This document shows, piece after piece, positions 2,721-59,707 of a stretch of 64,000 nt of DNA. The DNA lies in the IMG/VR virus record IMGVR_UViG_3300019927_000008, positions 1 to 64,000 of that record; one strand, 5' to 3'. Each line of letters starts with the position of its first letter. The first letter of the stretch is position 1. The notes below the pieces were generated by a model, which was given only the letters and a program-made list of their open reading frames with translations, made no database searches and had not been told where the DNA came from. The position numbers and the translations under genes were made by a program. Source of the DNA: a virus.

Positions 2721-4442
2721 ATGGATAAACTCGCTGAAACTATCGCAGAAGATGGAGACAGCGAGAAGGCCGGGCTGTTGAAGAAATGGCGTGGCGCTCC
2801 AGAGGAAATCGTTCAGGACGTGTTCCGAACACGGAACATGGAGACTGGACAGATGGAGCCGCTTCGGTTGTTCTATCCGTACCAGCCGAAGCTCCTTCAC
2901 GCCTACTTCTACGGCGGCGCGACGATCACGAACGTCTACAAGGGTCGTCGTATTGGGGTTTCGTTCATTTTCTGTGTGGCGTTGGCGATTGACGCTTTTA
3001 CAACGCCAGACGCGAACTTCGCTATTGTTTCACGCACGAAGGGGCAGTCCGAGGAACGGATTGGCGACATTCGTGACCTTCTGAAGCAGGCGAGGTTCGT
3101 GGATGAGCCAGTTGAAGATTGGCTCCAAAAAGACAACAACGCGAAGCTGATTTTCCCGAACGGCGCGACGATTCGAGCCTTCTCCGGTGATCCGAAGTCG
3201 GCTCGTGGGATGGACTCCGCGAAGACAGTCTTCGTGGACGAGATGGCGTGGCTTGAGGATCAGGCCGCGACCATGCAGGCGTTCATGCCCTTCATCAACC
3301 TCGGCAGTCACCGGCAGATGCTTCAGGTGTCTACCCCGAGGGCGAACAACGACCGCTTCCTGAAGACGCACGAACGCGGGACGCCGAAGGGAGACGATGG
3401 GGTTATCTCGGTGAAACAGCCGAGCTTTAAGAACCCCGAAGAAATCGACATCAACGAGCCGCTTTACGATCAGGATGTCGAGCCGGTTCGACCAGACATG
3501 GACGTTCAGTCCGTCGAGGTCGAACGAGCGCAAGACCCGCAAGGGTTCGCACAGGAGTACCTGTGTCGGCCTATCGCTGACGAGTACCGCTTCTTCACTA
3601 CAGAAGGAATCTATCGAGCCGCAGAACGCGGAGCGGCCCGTGTTGGTGAGAACGGCGACCTTCTCGGTGAATACAGCGGATGGTCCCCGATGACGCACTC
3701 CCGAGAGGGAGGAAAGATGGTCATGGGCGTGGACATCGGGATCGACAGGGACGACACCGCAATTGCGGTGTTCGAACACGTCGGAGCGTACCGTTATCTC
3801 AGATTCCACACACTTCTTAACCATCAGGACCTCCACGCGGTCGGGATAGAAGGTACACGGGTCAACGACCCGTCCAACGTTGCGGAATACATCTCACGCC
3901 TATGCGGTCAGATGAGCGTGGATCACGTCTTCTTGGACAAGACGGGTCCGGGTAAGGGTTTCCAGAAGGAAGTCGAAGCCCGACTCGGGAAGAAGGCGAA
4001 CGGCTTCAATTTCAGCGACAAAGACGAGATCGCCCGGATGATGGGCGACTTCAACTACGCGCTTCACAACGATCTGATGACGTTGGTTCCGGACGATCCG
4101 GTCCAGAACCAGCTTGAGGCGATTGTGAAGGAACAACGTCACGAGACTTCGAAGCCCCGTTTCTCGGGGAAGAAGCACGCCCCACAGGGCAAAGACGACA
4201 TGGCGATGGCGTTGGTCTTGGGTGCGTATCCCCCTGACTTCGACGCAGATCGCAACACGACTCCCAAACAGCGAGAAGGCGTGGCTACTGACCGAGAGGA
4301 TAGTGTCCGCGCTCAACGTAAGAATAAGAGTCGGGAAGATGGAGACTTTGCGGGAATCGTGAGTAGAACGAGTCAACGAGGCGGTACTTCTGACAGAAGT
4401 TGGGATCGGGGACGGTCCTACACCCGACGACACAAACACTAA
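2721..4442 (+). CDS. terL: Terminase large subunit
   Basis: DNA-packaging ATPase and nuclease that pumps genomes into proheads. The ATPase half shows a deviant Walker A around residues 73-81 (YKGRRIGVS), a clear Walker B with catalytic Glu at 170-175 (VFVDEM) and a coupling-motif-like LQVSTPR near 205. The RNase H-fold nuclease half has GVDIGIDRDDTA near 334, the FLDKTG strand near 400 and GKDDMAMAL near 490. 573 aa is normal for the family. Shares one base with the portal gene (TAATG). The residues SEKAG at 14-18 are encoded by the dispersed CGAGAAGG motif. Confidence 0.92.
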   Translation: MDKLAETIAEDGDSEKAGLLKKWRGAPEEIVQDVFRTRNMETGQMEPLRLFYPYQPKLLHAYFYGGATITNVYKGRRIGVSFIFCVALAIDAFTTPDANFAIVSRTKGQSEERIGDIRDLLKQARFVDEPVEDWLQKDNNAKLIFPNGATIRAFSGDPKSARGMDSAKTVFVDEMAWLEDQAATMQAFMPFINLGSHRQMLQVSTPRANNDRFLKTHERGTPKGDDGVISVKQPSFKNPEEIDINEPLYDQDVEPVRPDMDVQSVEVERAQDPQGFAQEYLCRPIADEYRFFTTEGIYRAAERGAARVGENGDLLGEYSGWSPMTHSREGGKMVMGVDIGIDRDDTAIAVFEHVGAYRYLRFHTLLNHQDLHAVGIEGTRVNDPSNVAEYISRLCGQMSVDHVFLDKTGPGKGFQKEVEARLGKKANGFNFSDKDEIARMMGDFNYALHNDLMTLVPDDPVQNQLEAIVKEQRHETSKPRFSGKKHAPQGKDDMAMALVLGAYPPDFDADRNTTPKQREGVATDREDSVRAQRKNKSREDGDFAGIVSRTSQRGGTSDRSWDRGRSYTRRHKH

Positions 4443-7502: not shown

Positions 7503-8042
7503 ATGACTGATTTCAACATTGCGACTGGTGAGGAACAGCCTCTCAACCGAACCGGCTTCTCGAACGTTCAGGTTGAGGGTAAGAATCAGGGCGTTCCTGT
7601 CGGCGTTGACAACTCGGGCGCAGAGCCTCAGCTTGTCCGCGCTGATGCAGACAGCGGGACTGCGATCCAAGCTGTCGGCGTTCTGTTCCCTCGTGAAGTC
7701 CTTCCTGCCGGTCAGTACGGCGGCGTCAACGCCCATCCGTGGGACGACGTGGAGGCCCAAATCTACGAGGAGAACCGCACGAAGGCGGGCGACCGCGCTA
7801 CGGTCGTTCGTAGCGGGATCGAGATGGTCAACGACGACGGCGACACGGACTTCGAGCCGAGTGAGCCGGTCTATCTGGCTCCCGGTGGTGGCTTCACACA
7901 GACGAAGCCTTCGGGTTCGGGCGACATTGTTCAGGTTCTCGGCGTTGCGACGACCGAGGTCGAGAACGAACTGGACCCCGGTAACGACGCGAAGGACCGG
8001 CTGTTCCTTGAGGTTGACGCCGACTACGAGGTTCTGGCGTAA
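7503..8042 (+). CDS. Putative head decoration protein
   Basis: 179 aa, beta-rich with repeated Gly/Val segments (GKNQGVPVGVDNSGAEP, AIQAVGVLFPREVL, GDIVQVLGVATTEV). Directly precedes the capsid gene, as lambda gpD-like and DUF2190-type stabilising proteins do. Composition and position support it; sequence identity to those families was not tested. Confidence 0.6.
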   Translation: MTDFNIATGEEQPLNRTGFSNVQVEGKNQGVPVGVDNSGAEPQLVRADADSGTAIQAVGVLFPREVLPAGQYGGVNAHPWDDVEAQIYEENRTKAGDRATVVRSGIEMVNDDGDTDFEPSEPVYLAPGGGFTQTKPSGSGDIVQVLGVATTEVENELDPGNDAKDRLFLEVDADYEVLA

Positions 8043-9925: not shown

Positions 9926-10531
9926 GTGAGTGACATAGACATAGACATCGACGTTAAAAGAGCGGATCAGGTTCAACCAGCGTTGAGTAAAGGTCTGATG
10001 GAAGGCCTCGAAGATACTGGTAACTGGATGCTCGATGAGGGCGTCGATAAGGCGAAGGACGGCATCATGTCCGAGCCGAATCGTCGAGTCTGGAAGGGTG
10101 AAGTCAAAAACAGCTTCGTCAAAAACGAGTGGGAATTTAATCGGAGCTATTTCTGGAAAGGGAGCATCACGAACACAGCGCCTCACGCTGAATCCGTTGA
10201 AAACGGACTTCCTCCGGGGACTAACCCCACGATTCAGACACTCATTCCTTGGGTAGACGATCAGCTCGAACCGAATAGCGAAACGAAGGACTTGGCGAGG
10301 CAGTCTCACATCGAAAACTGGCAAGCGCCGCTTCGCGCACTTGCTAAAGAATACGGGACTGCTGAAGTTCTCACGACGTTCGCGGTGAAGGGCAAACTGG
10401 AGGATGAAGGGTATCAAGGGATTCACTTCATGCGCGAAGCGGAATCCTACCTTGAGCAGATGGGTAAGACCATCGTAAAAGGGAAGATCGAGAAGCATAT
10501 GCAAAATGAGCTTCGGAAGAGGGGAGTCTAA
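9926..10531 (+). CDS. Putative tail-completion/neck protein (gp10-like)
   Basis: 201 aa with GTG start. Begins MSDIDIDIDVK; a helix with the tail-completion flavour (LMEGLEDTGNWMLDEGVD) is followed by an A-HAxSVENGLPPGT turn seen in HK97 gp10-like proteins. Overlaps the next gene by one base (TAATG). Confidence 0.55.
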   Translation: MSDIDIDIDVKRADQVQPALSKGLMEGLEDTGNWMLDEGVDKAKDGIMSEPNRRVWKGEVKNSFVKNEWEFNRSYFWKGSITNTAPHAESVENGLPPGTNPTIQTLIPWVDDQLEPNSETKDLARQSHIENWQAPLRALAKEYGTAEVLTTFAVKGKLEDEGYQGIHFMREAESYLEQMGKTIVKGKIEKHMQNELRKRGV

Positions 10532-24459: not shown

Positions 24460-24460
24460 C

Positions 24461-24606
24461 GGAAGAGCCGGGATTCGAACCCGGAATCCGGAGTGTACGG
24501 GGACTTACTGAAAGAGCGATTAGATAGCACTCGATCATCAGCACTCCCTACTCCGATGAACTTCAGTTTAACCCGAAGCGCCTTTGTCCAATTTGGCTAC
24601 TCATCC
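24461..24606 (-). tRNA. tRNA-like gene with insertion, possibly tRNA-Leu
   Basis: The minus strand begins GGATGAGTAGCCAAATTGG and ends with a perfect T arm (CCGGGTTCGAATCCCGG) and CTCTTCC, pairing with the 5' end at six of seven positions. The D arm GTAGCCAA...AAAGGCGC is that of archaeal tRNA-Leu, and a TTAA in the loop after CTTCGGG could be anticodon UAA. At 146 nt it is about 60 nt too long, so an intron is likely; ACTGAA and TTCAGT within the extra part can pair. I could not place a standard bulge-helix-bulge, so identity is tentative. Confidence 0.55.
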
Positions 24607-35045: not shown

Positions 35046-35236
35046 TCCCGAAGCTCCTCGATCACGATGTCAGCATCTTCAGGCTGGAACGGGATCGTGA
35101 TGGTCAGCTCGTCCATCTCTTCTCGGTCGATCTCCGACTTTTCGAGCAGTTTGTCGAGATCGCTCAGGTCGTCGATGATGGCTTGCTTCTGTTCCTCGTC
35201 GATGATCTTCTGAAGTGCAGTTTGGTCTTCTGTCAT
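35042..35236 (-). CDS. Hypothetical helical protein, 64 aa
   Basis: Begins MTEDQTALQKIIDEEQKQ and is coiled-coil-like through LDKLLEKSEIDREE, then a short strand (ITIPFQPED). Overlaps both neighbours by ATGA. Unknown. Confidence 0.55.
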   Translation of the reverse strand: MTEDQTALQKIIDEEQKQAIIDDLSDLDKLLEKSEIDREEMDELTITIPFQPEDADIVIEELRE

Positions 35237-42761: not shown

Positions 42762-42904
42762 GCTATCACTCCGAAGTGAAGCAGGAGCAGGTAGACGACG
42801 TAGACTCCGCCGACGATCATCGACAGAGCCAACACGAGACAGAAGGCGAACCACGCTTTGAACAGCGTGAAGATGCCTTCCGGTTCGAGGTTGTCAGTCT
42901 CCAT
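42758..42904 (-). CDS. Single-span membrane protein, 48 aa
   Basis: METDNLEPEGIFTLFK followed by a long hydrophobic helix (FAFCLVLALSMIVGGVYVVY) extending to the C-terminus. Overlaps both neighbours. Function unknown. Confidence 0.5.
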   Translation of the reverse strand: METDNLEPEGIFTLFKAWFAFCLVLALSMIVGGVYVVYLLLLHFGVIA

Positions 42905-44010
42905 CAGTCAGATCGCTCCTGTGCAACCTCTGCGGCGGCTTGCCAGTCGATCTCGTCCGGATTGTCTACCTCGTTCTCCGCGAAGTTCCGGATGTCCTGT
43001 GCGGTCGGATTGTCGTTGTTACGAGCGATGTAGTCGATCAGGTTGTCGAGGTGGTCCGGCACTCCCGAGGGGAGGCCGTCAGAGGCTCCAGACGGCTCGT
43101 CAGGAGACTCCGTATCGGTGCTACCCGAGGCGTCGGCGGTGGTCGTCCCACCGTCAGCGGCGGCCTTCTCGCTGTCAGGCGACCCACTCTGACTATCGTC
43201 GTCAGACAGGTCGTTGTCGATGTTGACGAACTCGCCCGTTCCCACATCGAGCAGGTTGGGGACTTCGTAGGTCGTCGTGTCTCCGTCTTCCCACTCCTGC
43301 GTTTCCTCCGTGACCCACAGCTCCATCGGACGACCCTCAAGTTCCTCCCGAAGCTCGGGGTCTTCCGTCGCCAGCCAGTCGTGGTCGTCGTACTTCGGGT
43401 TCTTGTCGGGTTCACCCCGAGGGGTCGGGTCTTCGCCGTTGTCGTTGATGACCGCATCTCCCATCTTCGTCACCTTCTTAGCGAAGGTGCGAACCCACGA
43501 GTTGTTGCCGAGGAGCATCGAAGCGTCGTCGGCAAGGATCGCTCCGTCTTCGATTTCGAGATCGAGGTCGTTGTTGACCGCGATGTCTCCCGCTTCTTCG
43601 ATCACTACACCGACCGGGGTGTAGAAGTAGTCGTTCCCGGCGAAGGACTCCGAGAACCCTGCGACTCGCGGGTGATCGAGGATGTCCTGCGCGGACATCT
43701 GATTGCTGTACTCGCCGGTTTCGCTCTGCTTCTCGTAGACCAGTCCGTCACTCGGGTTGAGGTTGAAGAACTTGTCTGCCGAGAAAATCTTCCAAGTGTT
43801 CGGCTTGTCGTCGCGGCGGAAGACTACGCCGTCGATCACGGCGGCGTCTTCGAAGTTGATGATGAAGCTCGTCCCGTACTGATCGTGCGTACTGGCGTTG
43901 AGATCAGTCGGGGAGAGCCGCACCGCCGCGTACTTCTGGAGCTTGAACGTCTTCTGGTCGTCGTAGTCGTTACCGTCGCCGTTGTTGCCGGAGTTGTCGT
44001 ATCGGGACAT
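42904..44010 (-). CDS. Hypothetical protein with disordered linker, 368 aa
   Basis: First gene of the helicase-primase unit. N-terminal 250 residues look globular (KTFKLQKYAAVRLSPTDLN, YFYTPVGVVIEEAGDI, MELWVTEETQEWED). Then comes a Ser/Asp/Gly-rich disordered linker (260-310) and a small helical C-terminal domain (LDNLIDYIARNNDNPTA). The layout resembles single-strand-binding or replication-accessory proteins, but no motif proves it. CCTTCTCGCTGT is at 43164-43175. Confidence 0.55.
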   Translation of the reverse strand: MSRYDNSGNNGDGNDYDDQKTFKLQKYAAVRLSPTDLNASTHDQYGTSFIINFEDAAVIDGVVFRRDDKPNTWKIFSADKFFNLNPSDGLVYEKQSETGEYSNQMSAQDILDHPRVAGFSESFAGNDYFYTPVGVVIEEAGDIAVNNDLDLEIEDGAILADDASMLLGNNSWVRTFAKKVTKMGDAVINDNGEDPTPRGEPDKNPKYDDHDWLATEDPELREELEGRPMELWVTEETQEWEDGDTTTYEVPNLLDVGTGEFVNIDNDLSDDDSQSGSPDSEKAAADGGTTTADASGSTDTESPDEPSGASDGLPSGVPDHLDNLIDYIARNNDNPTAQDIRNFAENEVDNPDEIDWQAAAEVAQERSD

Positions 44011-44140: not shown

Positions 44141-44192
44141 GCCGAGTGGTGGGAGTTGAACCACCATACGACGGCCTGATTACCGACTCGGT
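44141..44192 (-). ncRNA. tRNA-like minihelix (acceptor plus T arm)
   Basis: Minus strand 44192-44186 (ACCGAGT) pairs at six positions with ACTCGGC at 44147-44141. Inside it GGTGG/CCACC closes an eight-base loop beginning TTCAACT, as in a T arm. No D or anticodon arm fits in the 20 nt between. It could be a decayed tRNA, but two similar minihelices exist at 55966 and 58966. Confidence 0.45.
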
Positions 44193-45164: not shown

Positions 45165-45237
45165 TAGTCCGGGGAGGATTCGAACCTCCGGCATCGGCTC
45201 CAAAGGCCAATATGTTTGGCCGCTACACCACCGGACT
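45165..45237 (-). tRNA. tRNA-Gln(UUG)
   Basis: 73 nt: acceptor AGTCCGG/CCGGACT with discriminator A, D arm TGGTGTAGCGGCC, anticodon arm TTGGC-CTTTGGA-GCCGA giving anticodon UUG, T arm GGAGG-TTCGAAT-CCTCC. All stems pair. The sequence is very close to what I recall of haloarchaeal tRNA-Gln. Serves CAA/CAG codons in viral mRNA. Confidence 0.92.
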
Positions 45238-45371
45238 GAATGGAGAGGTGTGTAACTTCTCTCCACCTTACAGCAACCGAGGGAACCAGTCTCGATTGGG
45301 TTGGGGTGAACCGCGAACCTCGCTTTGTGTTTTCTGCTCTATTCAGCACCGCTCCTCCGACATCGGAGGAA

Positions 45372-45444
45372 TGGAGACGGAGGGATTCGAACCCCCGGTG
45401 TGCCGCCGGATGGCGACCACGATACCTGACTTCGCCACGTCCCC
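45372..45444 (-). tRNA. tRNA-like, anticodon arm irregular
   Basis: 73 nt with good acceptor (GGGGACG/CGTCTCC, one G-U), D arm (GCGA/TCGT) and T arm (GGGGG-TTCGAAT-CCCTC). The anticodon region GGTCGCCATCCGGCGGCA does not give a five-pair stem with a seven-base loop. The only T that can be position 33 would imply CCG (Arg), which is weak. Either a decayed tRNA or a non-decoding tRNA-like RNA. Confidence 0.6.
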
Positions 45445-45761
45445 TCGGGCCGTTTTCAGGCCCTTTAGATCAAACACAATTAGGGTATGATCTTGTTCGA
45501 CAATTGTGGGCGGCGCGACTCTTATCGCCCCTCACCTCGGGTGTCACCTCCGTTCTACCGGAGATCATCACTACCGAGTGCTTCGGTTAGGACCCGGTTC
45601 TATGTTTCGTTAGACTTGAATCACCAGACTTTGAATCTTTCGTTTGGGTGTTAAAATGGGGTTTAATACTGAAACGTGACGACCCCAATTTCACGTTTCG
45701 CAGGCCGCTTATTGGCCTCGGTCCAGAGAGGCGGCCTTTCTCTCCTTTCCTCGAACGGCCA
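45445..45761. other. Non-coding spacer in the tRNA region
   Basis: No gene seen. It contains the short hairpins expected between tRNA genes, for example ACCTCGGGTGT and a CCGTTCTACCGG stem, a GACTTGAATC box near 45613 resembling half a promoter box, and an AATTTCACGTTTCG stretch. The minus-strand open frame spanning 45587-46591 is an artefact of several tRNA-like genes. Confidence 0.4.
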
Positions 45762-45837
45762 TACGGAAGCCGGGATTTGAACCCGAGTCTCCCTACCATA
45801 CTGGCAAGGAATCGTGGCCGGACTCGACTACTTCCGT
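45762..45837 (-). tRNA. tRNA-like, possibly tRNA-Gly(GCC)
   Basis: 76 nt: acceptor ACGGAAG/CTTCCGT perfect, D arm GTCG/CGAT, T arm TCGGG-TTCAAAT-CCCGG. The loop TTGCCAG would give GCC (Gly), as in archaeal tRNA-Gly, but the bases flanking it do not make a normal stem; TGCCA-GTA-TGGTA forms a competing hairpin. Identity therefore tentative. Confidence 0.55.
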
Positions 45838-45981
45838 GGTGATTTTTAAGCGCCACAACGTTTCCTCCCGCTATCACGGGTATGTCACTCGGCGCTCGAA
45901 ACGAGAGGCGACCTCGCTTCGTCGGGCTGTTGCCAACGTTGCCCTCGGTAGCAGTTGTTCGACCGGGTGCAAGCCGGTAAG

Positions 45982-46061
45982 TGGGAGATGGGGCCTCGAA
46001 CCCCGTTCGTGCGGTCATTGCCGCGATACTTTCGCCAAGCCGTGCGCCTCGGCTACTCCCT
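45982..46061 (-). tRNA. tRNA-like, anticodon not assignable
   Basis: About 80 nt. GGGAG/CTCCC acceptor pairs, D arm GCCG/CGGC, and T arm CGGGG-TTCGAGG-CCCC are seen. The interior folds as two small hairpins (GCGA-AAGTA-TCGC and GCGG-CAATGA-CCGC) rather than an anticodon arm. Discriminator A. Probably a degenerate or non-decoding tRNA-like element. Confidence 0.5.
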
Positions 46062-46172
46062 ATGAGAGTTGAGATAACCGGGCATCCCTCACCCCGGAGT
46101 CGCGGATTCCCCGACCCACGCCCATCGAGGGGCATGGTCATCGAGGCTCCACCGGAGCGACTGTCCGGCTCA

Positions 46173-46258
46173 AGAGAACGGAGGGATTCGAACCCTCGTG
46201 TTGCTGTTTCACCTTCTGGATGGGAAGGTCGCGTTCGGCCAGACTGCGCTACGTTCTC
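46173..46258 (-). tRNA. tRNA-like, long variable region
   Basis: 86 nt. Acceptor GAGAACG/CGTTCTC perfect, T arm GAGGG-TTCGAAT-CCCTC perfect, and a strong five-pair anticodon stem CCTTC/GAAGG. The loop CCATCCA lacks the T expected at position 33, and the formal anticodon AUC is not used in archaea. A 14-nt variable region follows, as in Leu/Ser tRNAs. Transcribed identity unclear. Confidence 0.55.
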
Positions 46259-46312
46259 GGAATGGCGTCGTTGGGTGAGGCTTACTGATCCCGACGCCTG
46301 AGGATCAGCCAA

Positions 46313-46386
46313 AGCCAGTCCCCGGATTCGAACCGGGGAAGTCTTCCTTACAAAGGAAGTGCTTGAACCACCCAAGCTCGACGGGC
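46313..46386 (-). tRNA. tRNA-Thr(UGU)
   Basis: 74 nt: acceptor GCCCGTC/GACTGGC (one mismatch), D arm GCTT/AAGC, anticodon stem CTTCC/GGAAG with loop TTTGTAA giving UGU, T arm CCCGG-TTCGAAT-CCGGG. Decodes ACA/ACG. It is the first tRNA of the minus-strand cluster, about 170 bp after a promoter-like GAGTCTTA box. Confidence 0.88.
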
Positions 46387-49072: not shown

Positions 49073-50080
49073 TTATTCGAAGTAGTCTCTCCGTTGTTCC
49101 TGTTTCTCTTCTTCAGTTCGAACTTCGTAGTGTTTGTCCATGATACGCTGGCTCACATCACATCGGTCGGAGATGTACTTGTCGGGGATTTCTTCACGAC
49201 GGTAGTCGGTGATGACGAGTTTTCTGATACCGTGAGGATTGACGATTGACGGACATCCGTTCGGGTTGTCGGTGTATCCTGCGATGGAACACGCTTCTTT
49301 CGTTGTTCCATGGGGACATTCGAGGCCGATCTGACACGGTTGAGTGAGTCTGTAGACCGCTCTTCGGAGTGTGGACTTCGAAGGTCGCCCTTGGGTTCCG
49401 GTCAGGATTGGCTTCCGTCCGTACTTGTCATCGGTTTTGATCCTCACATCGTCGATGTAGTCGCAAAGAACATCGGTTGTTTCTTCGGAGAGGGTTGTGG
49501 CTCGTTGCCCACTTTCTCCATTTTTAAGTGGAGTGTCTTCTTCGGGTCGGTGTCGGAAGCGAAGGCGTCGTTCGTCGCGGTCGAAGTCTCGGAGATCGAG
49601 GCCGTGGGCCGCGCCGATCCTGACGCCGATGCCGTAGAGGATGGTCCAGAGGGCGTGGTCCCTCGAAGCGTAGTCGTAGCGTTCGAGGTAGGCGTCGATC
49701 TTTTGGGCGTGATCTGACGGGAGTGAGACGGTGCGAACGTCTTCGTTTTTGCCAAGGTCGGGAACGTCGATACGCTGAGTGAGGCCTTGATCGACGACTT
49801 CCATCTTTTCGAGGAATTTGACCCACACTCTGATCGTAGACATTTGGGTGTGGAGGGTGACGTTGTTGAGGTCGCCGTCTTGCTGTCTCCATGCTTTGTA
49901 TTGGATCAGGAGCTTGCCGTCAAGCTCTTGGGTAGATTCCACCCCCTTCTCGCTGGCCCACCTGATGAGGTGTTTCAGTCTGTAGCGATGGGATTGGAGT
50001 GTGTTTTCTTGTAGGTCTGTTCGTCGGTGGTCGAGGTACGTTTCGACCGCATCCTTGATGCTCATGCTCGTATCGCTCAT
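49073..50080 (-). CDS. int: Tyrosine recombinase (integrase)
   Basis: 335 aa from MSDTSMSIKDAVETYLD; the longer frame would read through the attP tRNA segment. N-terminal SAM-like core-binding domain (NTLQSHRYRLKHLIRW) to about 110. The catalytic domain has Arg in GIGVRIGAAHGLDL near 185, the beta-hairpin Lys region near 220, HGIRK (H-x-x-R) near 285 and the nucleophile Tyr in MDKHYEVR near 320. All key residues are present. Integration into a tRNA gene is expected; see 50177-50217. Confidence 0.88.
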   Translation of the reverse strand: MSDTSMSIKDAVETYLDHRRTDLQENTLQSHRYRLKHLIRWASEKGVESTQELDGKLLIQYKAWRQQDGDLNNVTLHTQMSTIRVWVKFLEKMEVVDQGLTQRIDVPDLGKNEDVRTVSLPSDHAQKIDAYLERYDYASRDHALWTILYGIGVRIGAAHGLDLRDFDRDERRLRFRHRPEEDTPLKNGESGQRATTLSEETTDVLCDYIDDVRIKTDDKYGRKPILTGTQGRPSKSTLRRAVYRLTQPCQIGLECPHGTTKEACSIAGYTDNPNGCPSIVNPHGIRKLVITDYRREEIPDKYISDRCDVSQRIMDKHYEVRTEEEKQEQRRDYFE

Positions 50081-50176
50081 AGCATATCCTGTGATGCGAG
50101 CAGTCCAGAGGATAAGGCGGTGCGGAGGGTGGTAGCGTTGCGGAAAGAGGGTCTGTGACGGGCCGTAAGGCCCGAA

Positions 50177-50217
50177 CATGACCCGATTGGTCCGCGGTTC
50201 AAATCCGCGTTGGCCCA
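50177..50217 (+). other. Putative attP core (tRNA 3' half)
   Basis: The 41 nt read as the 3' part of a tRNA: CATGACCCGATTGG (anticodon CAT, loop, stem 3' side), CGCGG-TTCAAAT-CCGCG T arm, and TTGGCCC plus A. The upstream 5' half is absent, as expected where a virus restores a target tRNA on integration. It most resembles archaeal tRNA-Ile or Met-type genes. It lies about 100 bp from the integrase start. Confidence 0.65.
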
Positions 50218-50398
50218 CCTTCTGAACTACTGACATCCAATGACCAGACGTGGCTCTACCCTATTTAAACCACCGACGAAACCGAGTGTTCAGTCCATCC
50301 AGAAATGGACGGCGCTCTTCACGTCATGCGATTATCTTCAGTCGAAACGGTCCACAGCGAGAAGGTCGCCGCGCCTCACTTCAGTCGAAACTACGAGG
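50218..50398. other. Spacer between attP and zinc gene
   Basis: No gene seen. A host-like TTTAAATAGGG (minus strand, about 50262-50274) could be the integrase promoter, giving a transcript that includes attP. The dispersed motif (ACAGCGAGAAGG) is at 50354-50365. Confidence 0.4.
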
Positions 50399-55486: not shown

Positions 55487-55636
55487 TCAGAAGTCTCGCG
55501 CCGTTCGCTCTTCGAGGTGATCCGGACAGAGTTTGTCTCCATCGTAGTCATGGAGATTGTCTGTCGCGGTGCAATGCTCACAGGTTTCCTCACTTTCATT
55601 CCCCCAAGGGGTTATTCCGGGGATTCTATCCATCAT
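55487..55636 (-). CDS. Zinc-binding microprotein, 49 aa
   Basis: MMDRIPGITPWGNESEE then CEHCTATDNLHDYDGDKLCPDHL: CEHC plus CPDH make a zinc site. Start overlaps the upstream stop. Followed by the tandem-hairpin element, copy A. Confidence 0.6.
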   Translation of the reverse strand: MMDRIPGITPWGNESEETCEHCTATDNLHDYDGDKLCPDHLEERTARDF

Positions 55637-55955
55637 CTTGAACCACATCGGTTGCCGCTCGTTCAGCGGCGTCAGCAGGCTGTTCAGCGAGGGCCGCGTG
55701 TTCTTCCACCACGTCGATGAAGGTGTTGATGATCGTCTCCGAAGTCGCTCGCTTAGAGACGCTTGTGCCTTGCTTGGCGTGCGTCTCTTTGACGAGTCGG
55801 TCGAAGGCGAGGGAATCATTCTCACGAAGCTCCTGTGCTTCGTCAGCGAACGAAGCGCAGGCCGCCGCCGCTCGGAACGCCGCCGTGTTCCGAACCAGAT
55901 CAGCCAGTTCGTCGTTGCTCATACTGCCGAGAGCTTGTGGGTTGTCGTCAGCCAT
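55626..55955 (-). CDS. Hypothetical Ala-rich helical protein, 109 aa
   Basis: MADDNPQALGSMSNDELADL, with Ala-rich helices through the whole length. Its leader contains the tRNA-like minihelix 55966-56006, 11 nt from the ATG. Unknown function. Confidence 0.6.
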   Translation of the reverse strand: MADDNPQALGSMSNDELADLVRNTAAFRAAAACASFADEAQELRENDSLAFDRLVKETHAKQGTSVSKRATSETIINTFIDVVEEHAALAEQPADAAERAATDVVQDDG

Positions 55956-55965
55956 TGTAACCTCA

Positions 55966-56006
55966 AGGGGTAGCGGGGAGTCGAACCCCGCGCCGCCACT
56001 TACCCT
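55966..56006 (-). ncRNA. tRNA-like minihelix (acceptor plus T arm)
   Basis: Minus strand: AGGGTA at 56006-56001, a 9-nt link, then GCGGGG-TTCGACT-CCCCGC (T arm, 55973-55991) and TACCCCT at 55972-55966. The two ends pair with one bulged C. No D or anticodon arm is present. The same six-pair T-stem and seven-base TTCGACT loop occur at 58966-59008. It sits between promoter box and start codon. Confidence 0.5.
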
Positions 56007-56011
56007 AAGAC

Positions 56012-56033
56012 TCTACTGCTTTAGAGTTAAGAC
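56012..56033 (-). promoter_or_regulatory. Early-type promoter box
   Basis: Minus strand GTAAGTCTTAACTCTAAAGCAG, followed by AGAGTCTTAGGG. It overlaps the 3' end of the gene at 56027 and drives the unit starting at 55955. Confidence 0.45.
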
Positions 56034-56716
56034 TTACGGTCCCACAACACCTCCGGAAGAACTTCTCGATAGAAGGCTGTATGCCGAGCGTGTTCCTCTC
56101 GCTGGTAGTCGTAGATGGCCCATTGGATCAGGAATGGAGGCATCCCGAGAGGGTTCGGAATCTCACCGATTATCTCTTCGCAGGTTTCGAAGTAGTCTTT
56201 CGAAGAGGTGAAGTTGAGAGCGTTTCCGGTTGACTCTTCAAGACCTGCGAAGTTAGCGACGTTCGAATCAACGCAGATGTATTCATAGAGTCCGGACATC
56301 GCCAGCATGAACGAAGCCTTCCGATAAGAAACTCCTTTCAGCTCATCGACGACGACTTCGAGAAGTTCTTCGAAGCGACCTTCCCGAGCATGGCATCGAA
56401 CTGCCTCTGCCAGTAAGTCCCACTCCGTGTTTTCGAAGCCGTTCGTGATCCACTCTGTCTTTTGGTTCCCGTAGACAGTCCCGGCGGCGGCCTTCCCGAG
56501 GTCGCTCCCCGAAGCCCACTCTGTAAAGGAACGCTCGTGACGTTCCAGTCCGGTTTGGATAGAGAAGACAGCGAAGACATAGCCGTTCCGTAGTATCTCT
56601 TCGGCCTTCTCTACGGTTCCGGAAAGGAGAAGTGTTCGGGTCTTTTCTGCGCGAGTCAACGACTGAACGTAATCTGGATGGTGGTCACTCATCCAGCCTT
56701 CGAGTGTTTCATACAT
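56027..56716 (-). CDS. HhH-GPD-like DNA glycosylase
   Basis: 229 aa from MYETLEGWMSDHHPD. Residues near 150-185 (VVDELKGVSYRKASFMLAM, then YICVDSNVANFAG) match the helix-hairpin-helix plus Asp of the endonuclease III/AGOG superfamily (GVxxKxAxxxL ... xxDxxV). The catalytic Lys seen in bifunctional members is not obvious, so it may be monofunctional. A base-excision role for viral DNA is likely. Confidence 0.55.
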   Translation of the reverse strand: MYETLEGWMSDHHPDYVQSLTRAEKTRTLLLSGTVEKAEEILRNGYVFAVFSIQTGLERHERSFTEWASGSDLGKAAAGTVYGNQKTEWITNGFENTEWDLLAEAVRCHAREGRFEELLEVVVDELKGVSYRKASFMLAMSGLYEYICVDSNVANFAGLEESTGNALNFTSSKDYFETCEEIIGEIPNPLGMPPFLIQWAIYDYQREEHARHTAFYREVLPEVLWDRKS

Positions 56717-57757: not shown

Positions 57758-58921
57758 CTACTGCGAGGTGGCTTCCTCCAGACGTTCTTCGGCGTCGTTG
57801 ATCCGGCTCCGAGTTTCCTGCGGGATCGGTGCGCCGTTCGCCGCGTTCTGGATGTCCTGACGGCGGCGGAAGAAGGCCCGAAGGTCGTCGTAGACATCTC
57901 GGGGAGCGACCTGTGCCTGCCGAAGGCCACGCTCCTTGGCGACCTGTCGGACGGCGGCTTCCACCGAAGGAAGCTCGCTGTAGCTCCGGTACACCTCTTC
58001 GAGAAGGTCCGGGTCCACCTCGAAGACGCCTTCGAACTGCTCCTGATCGGTGAAGACCGGCTCCGTGATGTAGCTGAAGAACCGCATCAGCATCGCCAGC
58101 TCGTTCACCGAGCAATGGCAGTACGGGTTGAAGAGAAGCCCGTCAGCGAAGTCCGGCTCGACGTTGAACGCCGACCGAATGTCGTGCTTGTCGTCGGAGT
58201 GGGAGTGCTGAAGGCCACACTCATCGACCGGACACTCGAAGGATCGAACCGAAGAAGAACCACCACCGATCATGGACTGAGCGTCCTGAAGAACGCCCAT
58301 CACTTCGCCGTCCACGTCGGAGTCCATGTCGGACATGAACTGTTCGAGGGTGTTACTCATGCTCTCACTTCGACCCTCATCGAGCGTGCTGTGGTTCCCG
58401 AGGCTCCACATCCGAACTTCGTAGCTCTCTTCGTCGTCTTCAGTCGCGGTCTGTTCCTCGTCGTTGCCGTCGCCGTTCTGCATGAAGTCGTACATGGTGG
58501 TGTTGTCTTCGTCGTCGTCGGTTTCTGCACTTTCCGTCTCGTCGTCGCTGAAGAGGACGGGTTCGATCTCGGGGTCTTCGTCGGTTGCCTCACTTTCCGA
58601 CTCGTCGCCTTCGAACAGTTCGGGGTTGATCTCTACGACTTCGTAGTCGTTGAAGAGGTCCCGAGAGTTTCTGACCGAGGCGAAGTAGTGAGCTTTCTCT
58701 TCGTCGTCGTAGACACTATCATTGTCTATCGCTTCTTGAACGTCACCAGTTTCCACGTTGACGATTGCGAACTTCGTTTCACTACTCCGTTCTTCTACGT
58801 GGTAGGAACCATCTCGGACGATGGATCGAGTCATCCGAGACGCCCTACCCTTTGCATCACCTTTGTCGTCGTAGGTTTGGTACTCTGTACCGTCTTCGCC
58901 AACTACTACGTATTCCGTCAT
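57758..58921 (-). CDS. Hypothetical acidic protein with Cys/His cluster, 387 aa
   Basis: N-terminal 100 residues folded (YVVVGEDGTEYQTYDDKGDAK), a long Asp/Glu-rich disordered middle (residues 105-170), then ECPVDECGLQHSHSDDKHD and LFNPYCHCSVNELAML, a plausible zinc site, and a helical end. It is the first gene after the promoter at 59018. May be an abundant early regulator; no family recognised. Confidence 0.55.
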   Translation of the reverse strand: MTEYVVVGEDGTEYQTYDDKGDAKGRASRMTRSIVRDGSYHVEERSSETKFAIVNVETGDVQEAIDNDSVYDDEEKAHYFASVRNSRDLFNDYEVVEINPELFEGDESESEATDEDPEIEPVLFSDDETESAETDDDEDNTTMYDFMQNGDGNDEEQTATEDDEESYEVRMWSLGNHSTLDEGRSESMSNTLEQFMSDMDSDVDGEVMGVLQDAQSMIGGGSSSVRSFECPVDECGLQHSHSDDKHDIRSAFNVEPDFADGLLFNPYCHCSVNELAMLMRFFSYITEPVFTDQEQFEGVFEVDPDLLEEVYRSYSELPSVEAAVRQVAKERGLRQAQVAPRDVYDDLRAFFRRRQDIQNAANGAPIPQETRSRINDAEERLEEATSQ

Positions 58922-58965
58922 GGGTTGTGTCCCGTCTATTTCTGCCGCGCCTCGGGGTGGCGCAA

Positions 58966-59008
58966 AGCCCGTCCCCGGAGTCGAACCGGGGGAAGACCAT
59001 CACGGGTT
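58966..59008 (-). ncRNA. tRNA-like minihelix (acceptor plus T arm)
   Basis: Minus strand: AACCCGT (59008-59002) pairs at six of seven positions with ACGGGCT (58972-58966); in between is the T arm CCCCGG-TTCGACT-CCGGGG (58973-58991) after a 10-nt link. No D or anticodon arm. It lies between the promoter box and the start codon at 58921, as at 55966. Confidence 0.5.
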
Positions 59009-59017
59009 AAGACTCGG

Positions 59018-59036
59018 GTTGCAGGGAGTTAAGTCT
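59018..59036 (-). promoter_or_regulatory. Early-type promoter box
   Basis: Minus strand GATAAGACTTAACTCCC, a near-perfect copy of the shared box, followed about 20 bp later by GAGTCTTAACCCG, a second half-like copy. Drives the unit starting at 58921. Confidence 0.5.
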
Positions 59037-59707
59037 TATCTTCTATCCGGAGTGTTTTCGATGGCCCACAACGCCTTCGCCACGAATTGAAGCTCCGAGA
59101 TGGTAAGTCGATACTCACCAACCTCCCGTTTGACGTGATCTTCGGGAGACTCGATTTCTACGTCGTAGGCTTCGACCTTCGAACCAGCCCCGATGATCGA
59201 ACCGTCACGGTTCTTGCTGATGACATCGGGATGGTAGAAGTCACCTTCGTAGGTCAACAGAACGTGACCGTTGATGAACCACCCACCTTCCCGCTCTTCG
59301 ATCCGCTCCGACAGCGGCTCGACGAAGGCTTCGAGAGCTTCGACCCTCACCATGTCTTCCCGCACCTTCTCGAAGAGATTGATGATGGGTTGAACGCTCT
59401 TTCCATCCCCCTCTTCGTACATCTCTGCCATCGCCTCGATCAGGTCGGTCTTGTGATGAGCGCCGAGGGTCAGATCAGTATTTCCAACCCGAAGGGTGTA
59501 GGCCTCATCATTTGAAGGGATGATGGTTACTCTCGGCTCTTCTTCGGCTCCTTGAGACTGCCAGACTTCGTTTCCTGCATCGAGAAGCCCGGCAAGGCCA
59601 TGACCGTAGATCAGCTTGTTGTAGTCCGAAGACTTCGTTCTGGTTACTGTGCTTCCATCATCCGTCATAACGAGGTAGTTAGTCCCGTTATCGTCTAAGA
59701 CTTGCAT
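59036..59707 (-). CDS. Hypothetical protein, 223 aa
   Basis: Begins MQVLDDNGTNYLVMTDDG; beta-rich N-terminal part (ADEEPRVTIIPSNDEAYTLRVG-like) and a helical NLFEKVREDMVRVEALEAFV; C-terminal GEYRLTISELQFVAKAL. Several halovirus regulators have such two-part layout, but no motif is diagnostic. Confidence 0.55.
   Translation of the reverse strand: MQVLDDNGTNYLVMTDDGSTVTRTKSSDYNKLIYGHGLAGLLDAGNEVWQSQGAEEEPRVTIIPSNDEAYTLRVGNTDLTLGAHHKTDLIEAMAEMYEEGDGKSVQPIINLFEKVREDMVRVEALEAFVEPLSERIEEREGGWFINGHVLLTYEGDFYHPDVISKNRDGSIIGAGSKVEAYDVEIESPEDHVKREVGEYRLTISELQFVAKALWAIENTPDRR

Follow-up and report, generated by a model that had tools for sequence, protein, structure and literature searches.

Minihelices resembling the top half of tRNA in the leaders and intergenic regions of haloviruses, and the possible trimming of viral mRNA there by host tRNA-processing enzymes

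Introduction

Structures that resemble tRNA can mark the sites at which a longer RNA is cut. In Haloferax volcanii, a t-element upstream of 5S rRNA is processed by tRNase Z, and t-elements placed on both sides of a crRNA have been used with RNase P and tRNase Z to release it in vivo (PMC4326828; PMC4946936). In mitochondrial transcripts, tRNAs or tRNA-like structures between cistrons serve as proposed cutting signals. Viruses also mimic the acceptor and T domain of tRNA, as in plant RNA viruses and the tRNA-like RNAs of gammaherpesviruses, where the structures are found at the 3' ends of RNA genomes or in pol III transcripts, not in the mRNA leaders of DNA viruses.

Among haloviruses, the papers on HF2 discuss a tRNA-like attP, tRNA genes, class I and II promoters, and a hammerhead ribozyme, and they note that long primary transcripts may be processed. 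The class I intergenic repeats (promoters IR1-IR6) of HF2, a virus of the same family, are DNA promoters with TATA and initiator motifs that by eye resemble those described below, while the hammerhead II ribozyme before the helicase gene of HF1-group viruses is a predicted RNA-cleaving element in an intercistronic leader, although with another fold. In HF2 and Serpecor1 it is predicted just before the helicase gene (10292-10359 of the record designated L009) and is another possible leader-cutting element. In addition, a "partial tRNA-Arg" was noted in Serpecor1 and HRTV-8 (PMC7230728), which now looks like one of the elements that we describe here.

Here, we examine a stretch of 64,000 nucleotides (the window), positions 1 to 64,000 of the 71.8-kb IMG/VR virus record IMGVR_UViG_3300019927_000008. 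A preliminary description, made from sequence alone, had proposed that elements at 55966-56006, 58966-59008 and, less perfectly, 44141-44192 consist of a T arm stacked on an acceptor-like stem without D or anticodon arms, and that two of them lie between an early promoter box and a start codon. It further suggested that they could be cut by RNase Z or RNase P to give defined mRNA 5' ends, or act as decoys or translational signals. Compared with the Haloferax t-elements, the elements reported here lie in viral mRNA leaders and between viral cistrons, with a conserved GG-containing bulge and, in Hafunaviridae, a promoter fused to the 5' side. The processing enzymes tRNase Z and RNase P exist in the hosts. 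Compared with mitochondrial punctuation, they belong to an archaeal DNA virus and are minimal minihelices that often have their own promoter. Compared with the HF2 intergenic repeats, the minihelix is a transcribed RNA element that was not described in that work.

Results

Setting and structure of the elements

The proteins of the window match Hafunaviridae (HSTV-2, HRTV-7, HCTV-6), with a Rad3-like helicase nearest to that of HF2-group viruses. By comparison with HF2 (PMC8707807), the minus-strand region at 51-64 kb is the early arm. The features of the three sites are as follows.

55968-56005 (minus): E1, minihelix core with a 5-bp acceptor, 9-nt bulge AGTGGCGGC, 6-bp T stem and loop TTCGACT; covariance model match 55966-56008, E 6.5e-12, with E1 in the training set
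58968-59006 (minus): E2, minihelix core with a 5-bp acceptor, 10-nt bulge GATGGTCTTC, 6-bp T stem and loop TTCGACT; model match 58966-59009, E 3e-9, with E2 in the training set
44142-44191 (minus): E3, degenerate variant with a 6-bp acceptor, 20-nt insert containing GGTAATCAGG and T arm with 8-nt loop TTCAACTC
56026-56036 (minus): TATA-like box TAAGTCTTAAC of E1
56006-56013 (minus): GAGTCTTA box of E1, aligned by eye with the gamma/initiator motif of HF2 class I promoters
59028-59038 (minus): TATA-like box TAAGACTTAAC of E2
59008-59015 (minus): GAGTCTTA box of E2
58947-58963 (minus): second hairpin (stem GCGCC/GGCGC, loop ACCCCGA) directly downstream of E2
55965-55966 (minus): predicted tRNase Z cut in E1, between nt 73 (T55966) and nt 74 (T55965), leaving a 10-nt leader TGAGGTTACA before ATG; inferred from the ruler and T74 rule described below
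58965-58966 (minus): predicted tRNase Z cut in E2, between nt 73 (T58966) and nt 74 (T58965); inferred in the same way
55626-55955 (minus): ORF after E1, 109 aa, without a Pfam or PHROG family
57758-58921 (minus): ORF after E2, 387 aa, phrog_30610 (unknown function), homologous to Mincapvirus gp90, which also has a leader element
42904-44010 (minus): ORF downstream of E3, 368 aa

The observation is confirmed, and it is much wider than first reported. E1 and E2 share one plan: TAAG(A/T)CTTAAC, a spacer, GAGTCTTA, 0-1 nt, the 5' acceptor strand, the bulge, the T arm, the 3' acceptor strand, the leader, and a start codon (55955 and 58921). From 56005 to 55968, E1 reads GGGTA, AGTGGCGGC, GCGGGG, TTCGACT, CCCCGC, TACCC. 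From 59006 to 58968, E2 reads CCCGT, GATGGTCTTC, CCCCGG, TTCGACT, CCGGGG, ACGGG. A descriptor with a TTCRANY loop, at least 5+5 bp and at least 11 bp in all gave two hits in the window against 0.045 per dinucleotide shuffle, and two or more hits occurred in 3 of 6021 shuffles. Neither element is a full tRNA. ARAGORN and Rfam (RF00005), the latter run up to E=5, returned no match at E1, E2, or E3. The same early promoter (GAGTCTTAGGGTGAA) also occurs at 63001-62918 (minus), where it is followed by a hairpin ACAGGGATCGTCCCTGT with no T loop that may be a substitute for the minihelix.

The third site is real but different. Its core, 44191-44142 (minus), reads CCGAGT, a 20-nt insert, GGTGG/CCACC closing the loop TTCAACTC, and ACTCGG. 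The AGTCTTA boxes there, which read TAAGACTCAAG, lie downstream of the element on its own strand, so that E3 is upstream of the promoter boxes of the ORF starting at 44010. Placement between an early promoter box and a start codon therefore holds for E1 and E2 only, as the preliminary description had stated. E3 shares GGTAATCAGG with the variant before Mincapvirus gp95 and is a positional homologue of acceptor-plus-T-arm elements in two related IMG/VR contigs, L001 (19841-19883, E 2.6e-5) and L002 (19708-19748), 130-150 nt before a conserved start codon. It lies next to a cluster of five predicted tRNA genes at 45165-46386 (minus; Gln, one of unclear type, Tyr, Asp, and Thr), and it would fit a cutting signal between the nearby tRNA genes and the mRNA. 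Elsewhere in the window, a 147-nt tRNA-like gene at 24460-24606 (minus; Rfam tRNA, 31.4 bits) seems to hold an intron or large insert, with an AAGACTTAACTC box just upstream.

Distribution among haloviruses

The same box and element occur at two corresponding early positions in L001 and L002. In HF2, the element is found at 2906-2944 and 4375-4414, before HrrHF2_010 and HrrHF2_035, and the HF2-group viruses examined have both. Mincapviruses have it before gp89 and variants before gp84, gp90, and gp95, while Laminvirus HRTV-25 has a variant before gp106. The gp90 and gp84 leaders (about 7600-7646 and 10066-10108 in the Mincapvirus record L007) have the same 7+5 or 6+5 geometry but a loop TTCACGA, which is not a standard T loop, and a 14-nt insert AGNNTAAGACNCCN, and are possibly a second, different class of leader RNA. 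In HRTV-7 (L011:8584-8628, minus), the annotated start of gp84 (8585) abuts the element, and a start at an ATG about 60 nt downstream is likelier. The situation is similar for HRTV-25 gp106.

A covariance model built from 17 sequences (R1) hit every one of 17 Hafunaviridae-type records searched whole, including HF2, with a best E below 1e-7, in each case with the element before early genes. Because the training sequences were chosen by a pairing descriptor, this result is partly circular. However, three matches were not in the training set: the L001 site given above and sites in two other halovirus families, HCTV-2 (Saparoviridae, E 3.6e-7) and HFTV1 (Haloferuviridae, E 2e-5). In both of these viruses the element lies between cistrons with no evident promoter, between gp71 and gp70 in HCTV-2 and straight after the gp62 stop codon in HFTV1, 14 nt before the PCNA gene and inside gp62-gp65, which is described as one early cluster. 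In HFTV1 the paired core ends at 35096, and the 12-layer ruler described below would place nt 73/74 at 35098/35099. R1 had no match in HVTV-1, HVTV-2, HCTV-5, phiCh1, or Hardycor1, and only weak matches in HGTV-1 (best E 0.006), most of which covered only the T arm.

Other searches added little. IMG/VR scans with the 387-aa ORF and a 946-aa ORF found no relatives, while the 109-aa ORF found two. Further IMG/VR scans with HF2, HCTV-6, HFTV1, and HCTV-2 proteins gave nothing beyond contigs matching the isolates. A pattern scan of genome contigs gave only one hit, in a Saprospiraceae MAG.

Covariation and anatomy

Both stems show strong compensatory change. Across 18 distinct sequences, 89% of cells were paired compared to 57% when shuffled, and 70 cells had changes on both sides with pairing kept, compared to 21 +/- 4 in shuffles. 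Sliding the partner by one column dropped pairing from 89% to 53-55%. Within one orthologous leader set (HF2 locus 2, 93% identity), RNAalifold predicted the acceptor, the T arm, and the second hairpin without guidance, and the acceptor held two pairs with double changes (T-A/C-G and C-G/T-A). The acceptor strands must therefore pair in RNA. The hairpin in HF2-group leaders that is equivalent to the one downstream of E2 also covaries. When MAFFT and RNAalifold were applied to all leaders, only the T stem was found, because bulge lengths differ. Folding energies of single sequences were not unusual, and their z-scores are uninformative.

In E1, E2, and the class A copies, the loop TTCGANT closed by G-C is the standard T-loop sequence. 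The bulge nearly always holds a GG (AGNGGCGGC in class A), and we infer that it may dock on the T loop as G18G19 of the D loop does. The acceptor and T stems total 12 layers, as in tRNA (5+6 plus a terminal A.C, 6+6, or 7+5), except in two copies with 13 (7+6), and no CCA is encoded. Five Watson-Crick pairs in the acceptor is, however, short. Counting from the loop, nt 73 varies, while nt 74 is T in 15 of 17 leader elements, against 14-25% expected, and in 10 of 12 viral tRNA genes. This pattern was noticed after the fact, and the 17 loci are not fully independent.

A natural exchange between tRNA and minihelix

In haloferacalesviruses, class I promoter IR2 is followed by a leader before the prohibitin gene. 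Six viruses (HF2, Hardygib1, HRTV-5, HJTV-1, HRTV-16, and HRTV-10) have a complete tRNA-Arg there, while three (Serpecor1, HSTV-4, and HRTV-24) have a minihelix, CGAGTT..AACTCG with T loop TTCGATT, in exactly the same slot, between the same flanks, and followed by the same N73|TGCGGTGTA. This minihelix was earlier called a partial tRNA-Arg with a 28-nt deletion (PMC7230728). The stems of the minihelix are paired, so we read it as maintained. A tRNA in a leader has to be cut out to work.

Promoter geometry and transcript ends

HF2 class I promoters carry alpha, beta (TATA), and gamma motifs and start at a G in the gamma motif, with the TATA box beginning at -26. In the window, TTAA lies at -25 to -22 from the first base of E1, and this spacing and the initiator-like GTCT..TAG-GTGA motif agree with those promoters by eye, although the full 58-bp repeat is absent. 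We predict starts at the first base of E1 and 1 nt before the stem of E2. The one measured 5' end near such an element, T-4384 of HF2 (PMC8707807, primer extension), lies 9 nt further in, within the bulge of the 4375-4414 element and not at the expected cut near 4415. Such RNA keeps the T arm and lacks the 5' acceptor strand, so the cut is either inefficient there or the end is a start site. It could also be a processed end or a reverse-transcription stop. This is the main observation that does not fit our interpretation, and it speaks against complete cutting at nt 73.

Discussion

Our results are most consistent with the view that these elements are viral t-elements, that is, RNA minihelices that copy the acceptor stem and T arm of tRNA, with a short GG-containing bulge in place of the D and anticodon arms, placed in 5' leaders and between cistrons. 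The sequences themselves establish the structure, its conservation and covariation, its position before start codons, its interchangeability with a full tRNA gene at one leader slot, and a tRNA-like 3' cleavage context. What we infer, from sequence alone, is the cleavage: that host tRNase Z recognizes the T arm and cuts after nt 73, removing the minihelix and giving the downstream mRNA a fixed 5' end, in many cases next to a second hairpin and then the ribosome-binding region. On read-through RNA from upstream genes, RNase P could cut the other side, such that the element would punctuate polycistronic RNA as tRNAs do in mitochondria. The exchange with tRNA-Arg, the 12-layer ruler, the T at position 74, the intercistronic copies, the covariation, and the Haloferax precedent all favor this view, in which we have moderate confidence. 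The T-4384 end of HF2, the short acceptor of five Watson-Crick pairs, the TTCACGA loop of the Mincapvirus gp84/gp90 site family, and the ordinary folding energies of single sequences count against it.

The interpretation offered in the preliminary description is thus partly supported. These are acceptor-plus-T-arm minihelices in leaders, and processing by RNase Z and RNase P is the best-supported function. Two outcomes that had been named in advance as refuting it were not observed, since no full tRNA is present and promoter geometry places the predicted start of transcription at the element, not downstream of it. Yet, in promoter-initiated RNA, E1 and E2 should have almost nothing 5' of the stem, so RNase P would matter only for read-through RNA. 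The third copy has another architecture, and no evidence was found for decoys. The claim that no archaeal viral leader of this kind had been described agrees with the open-access papers that we could search, none of which describes such elements in halovirus leaders, but this kind of RNA is known in Haloferax, and the partial tRNA-Arg had been noted.

Alternatively, the minihelix could remain uncut on the mRNA as a 5'-terminal, tRNA-like cap that protects against 5'-3' decay or recruits a T-loop-binding protein or the ribosome. This is the main rival. With the predicted start sites and the TTA|G initiator, mRNA would start with a paired end, a second covarying hairpin follows, and T-4384 in HF2 keeps the T arm. 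Nevertheless, we consider it unlikely, because it does not explain the exact swap with a full tRNA gene, the T74 signature, or the intercistronic copies with no evident promoter.

Other explanations are less plausible still. That the elements are decaying, nonfunctional remains of tRNA genes might be suggested by the earlier description of the Serpecor1 element and by the position of E3 next to a tRNA cluster, but neutral decay would break pairs, while we observed compensatory changes in both stems and an invariant T loop across genera, with the same plan at unrelated genes and in three virus families. A DNA-level operator or promoter inverted repeat would be in keeping with the adjacency to promoter boxes in E1, E2, and the HF2 group, yet it is very unlikely given the strand-specific T-loop sequence, the split acceptor helix with a 9-20 nt insert, stems whose sequence is free to vary as long as they pair, and copies with no promoter nearby. 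Finally, tRNA 3' fragments serve as attP in HF2-type viruses (PMC8707807), but, on position and stem structure, we rejected the reading that the elements were left by integrase-mediated recombination. The candidate attP is elsewhere, where a tRNA 3'-half-like sequence (CGCGGTTCAAATCCGCGTTGGCCCA; about 50160-50215, plus, with a T arm at about 50197) spans the start of a tyrosine integrase gene (49073-50236, minus), while E1 and E2 have different stem sequences and a pairing 5' acceptor strand, which an att fragment lacks. A possible att repeat occurs in L002, where two copies of a tRNA 3' end (GTTCAAATCTCGGCCAGCGCA) lie about 166 nt apart (13629 and 13795) at a tRNA-Gly.

A broader hypothesis is that tailed viruses of haloarchaea, across at least three families, use minimal tRNA mimics as a general system of mRNA punctuation, in which host tRNase Z and RNase P make the 5' ends of early viral mRNAs, and full tRNA genes and minihelices are exchangeable parts. 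The evidence does not exclude this possibility, although we regard it as slightly less likely than not. HF2 and HFTV1 are model haloviruses whose transcripts have been mapped (for HFTV1, infection RNA-seq in PMC12542753), and shorter-than-expected HF2 mRNAs were attributed to unexplained processing. A conserved leader RNA that can stand in for a tRNA gives a testable cause. If true, our interpretation would add a structured-RNA family that Rfam does not match at these sites, it would give an expression-tuning part for haloarchaeal genetics, and it would be a case of a DNA virus handing the maturation of its mRNA 5' ends to the tRNA-processing enzymes of its host.
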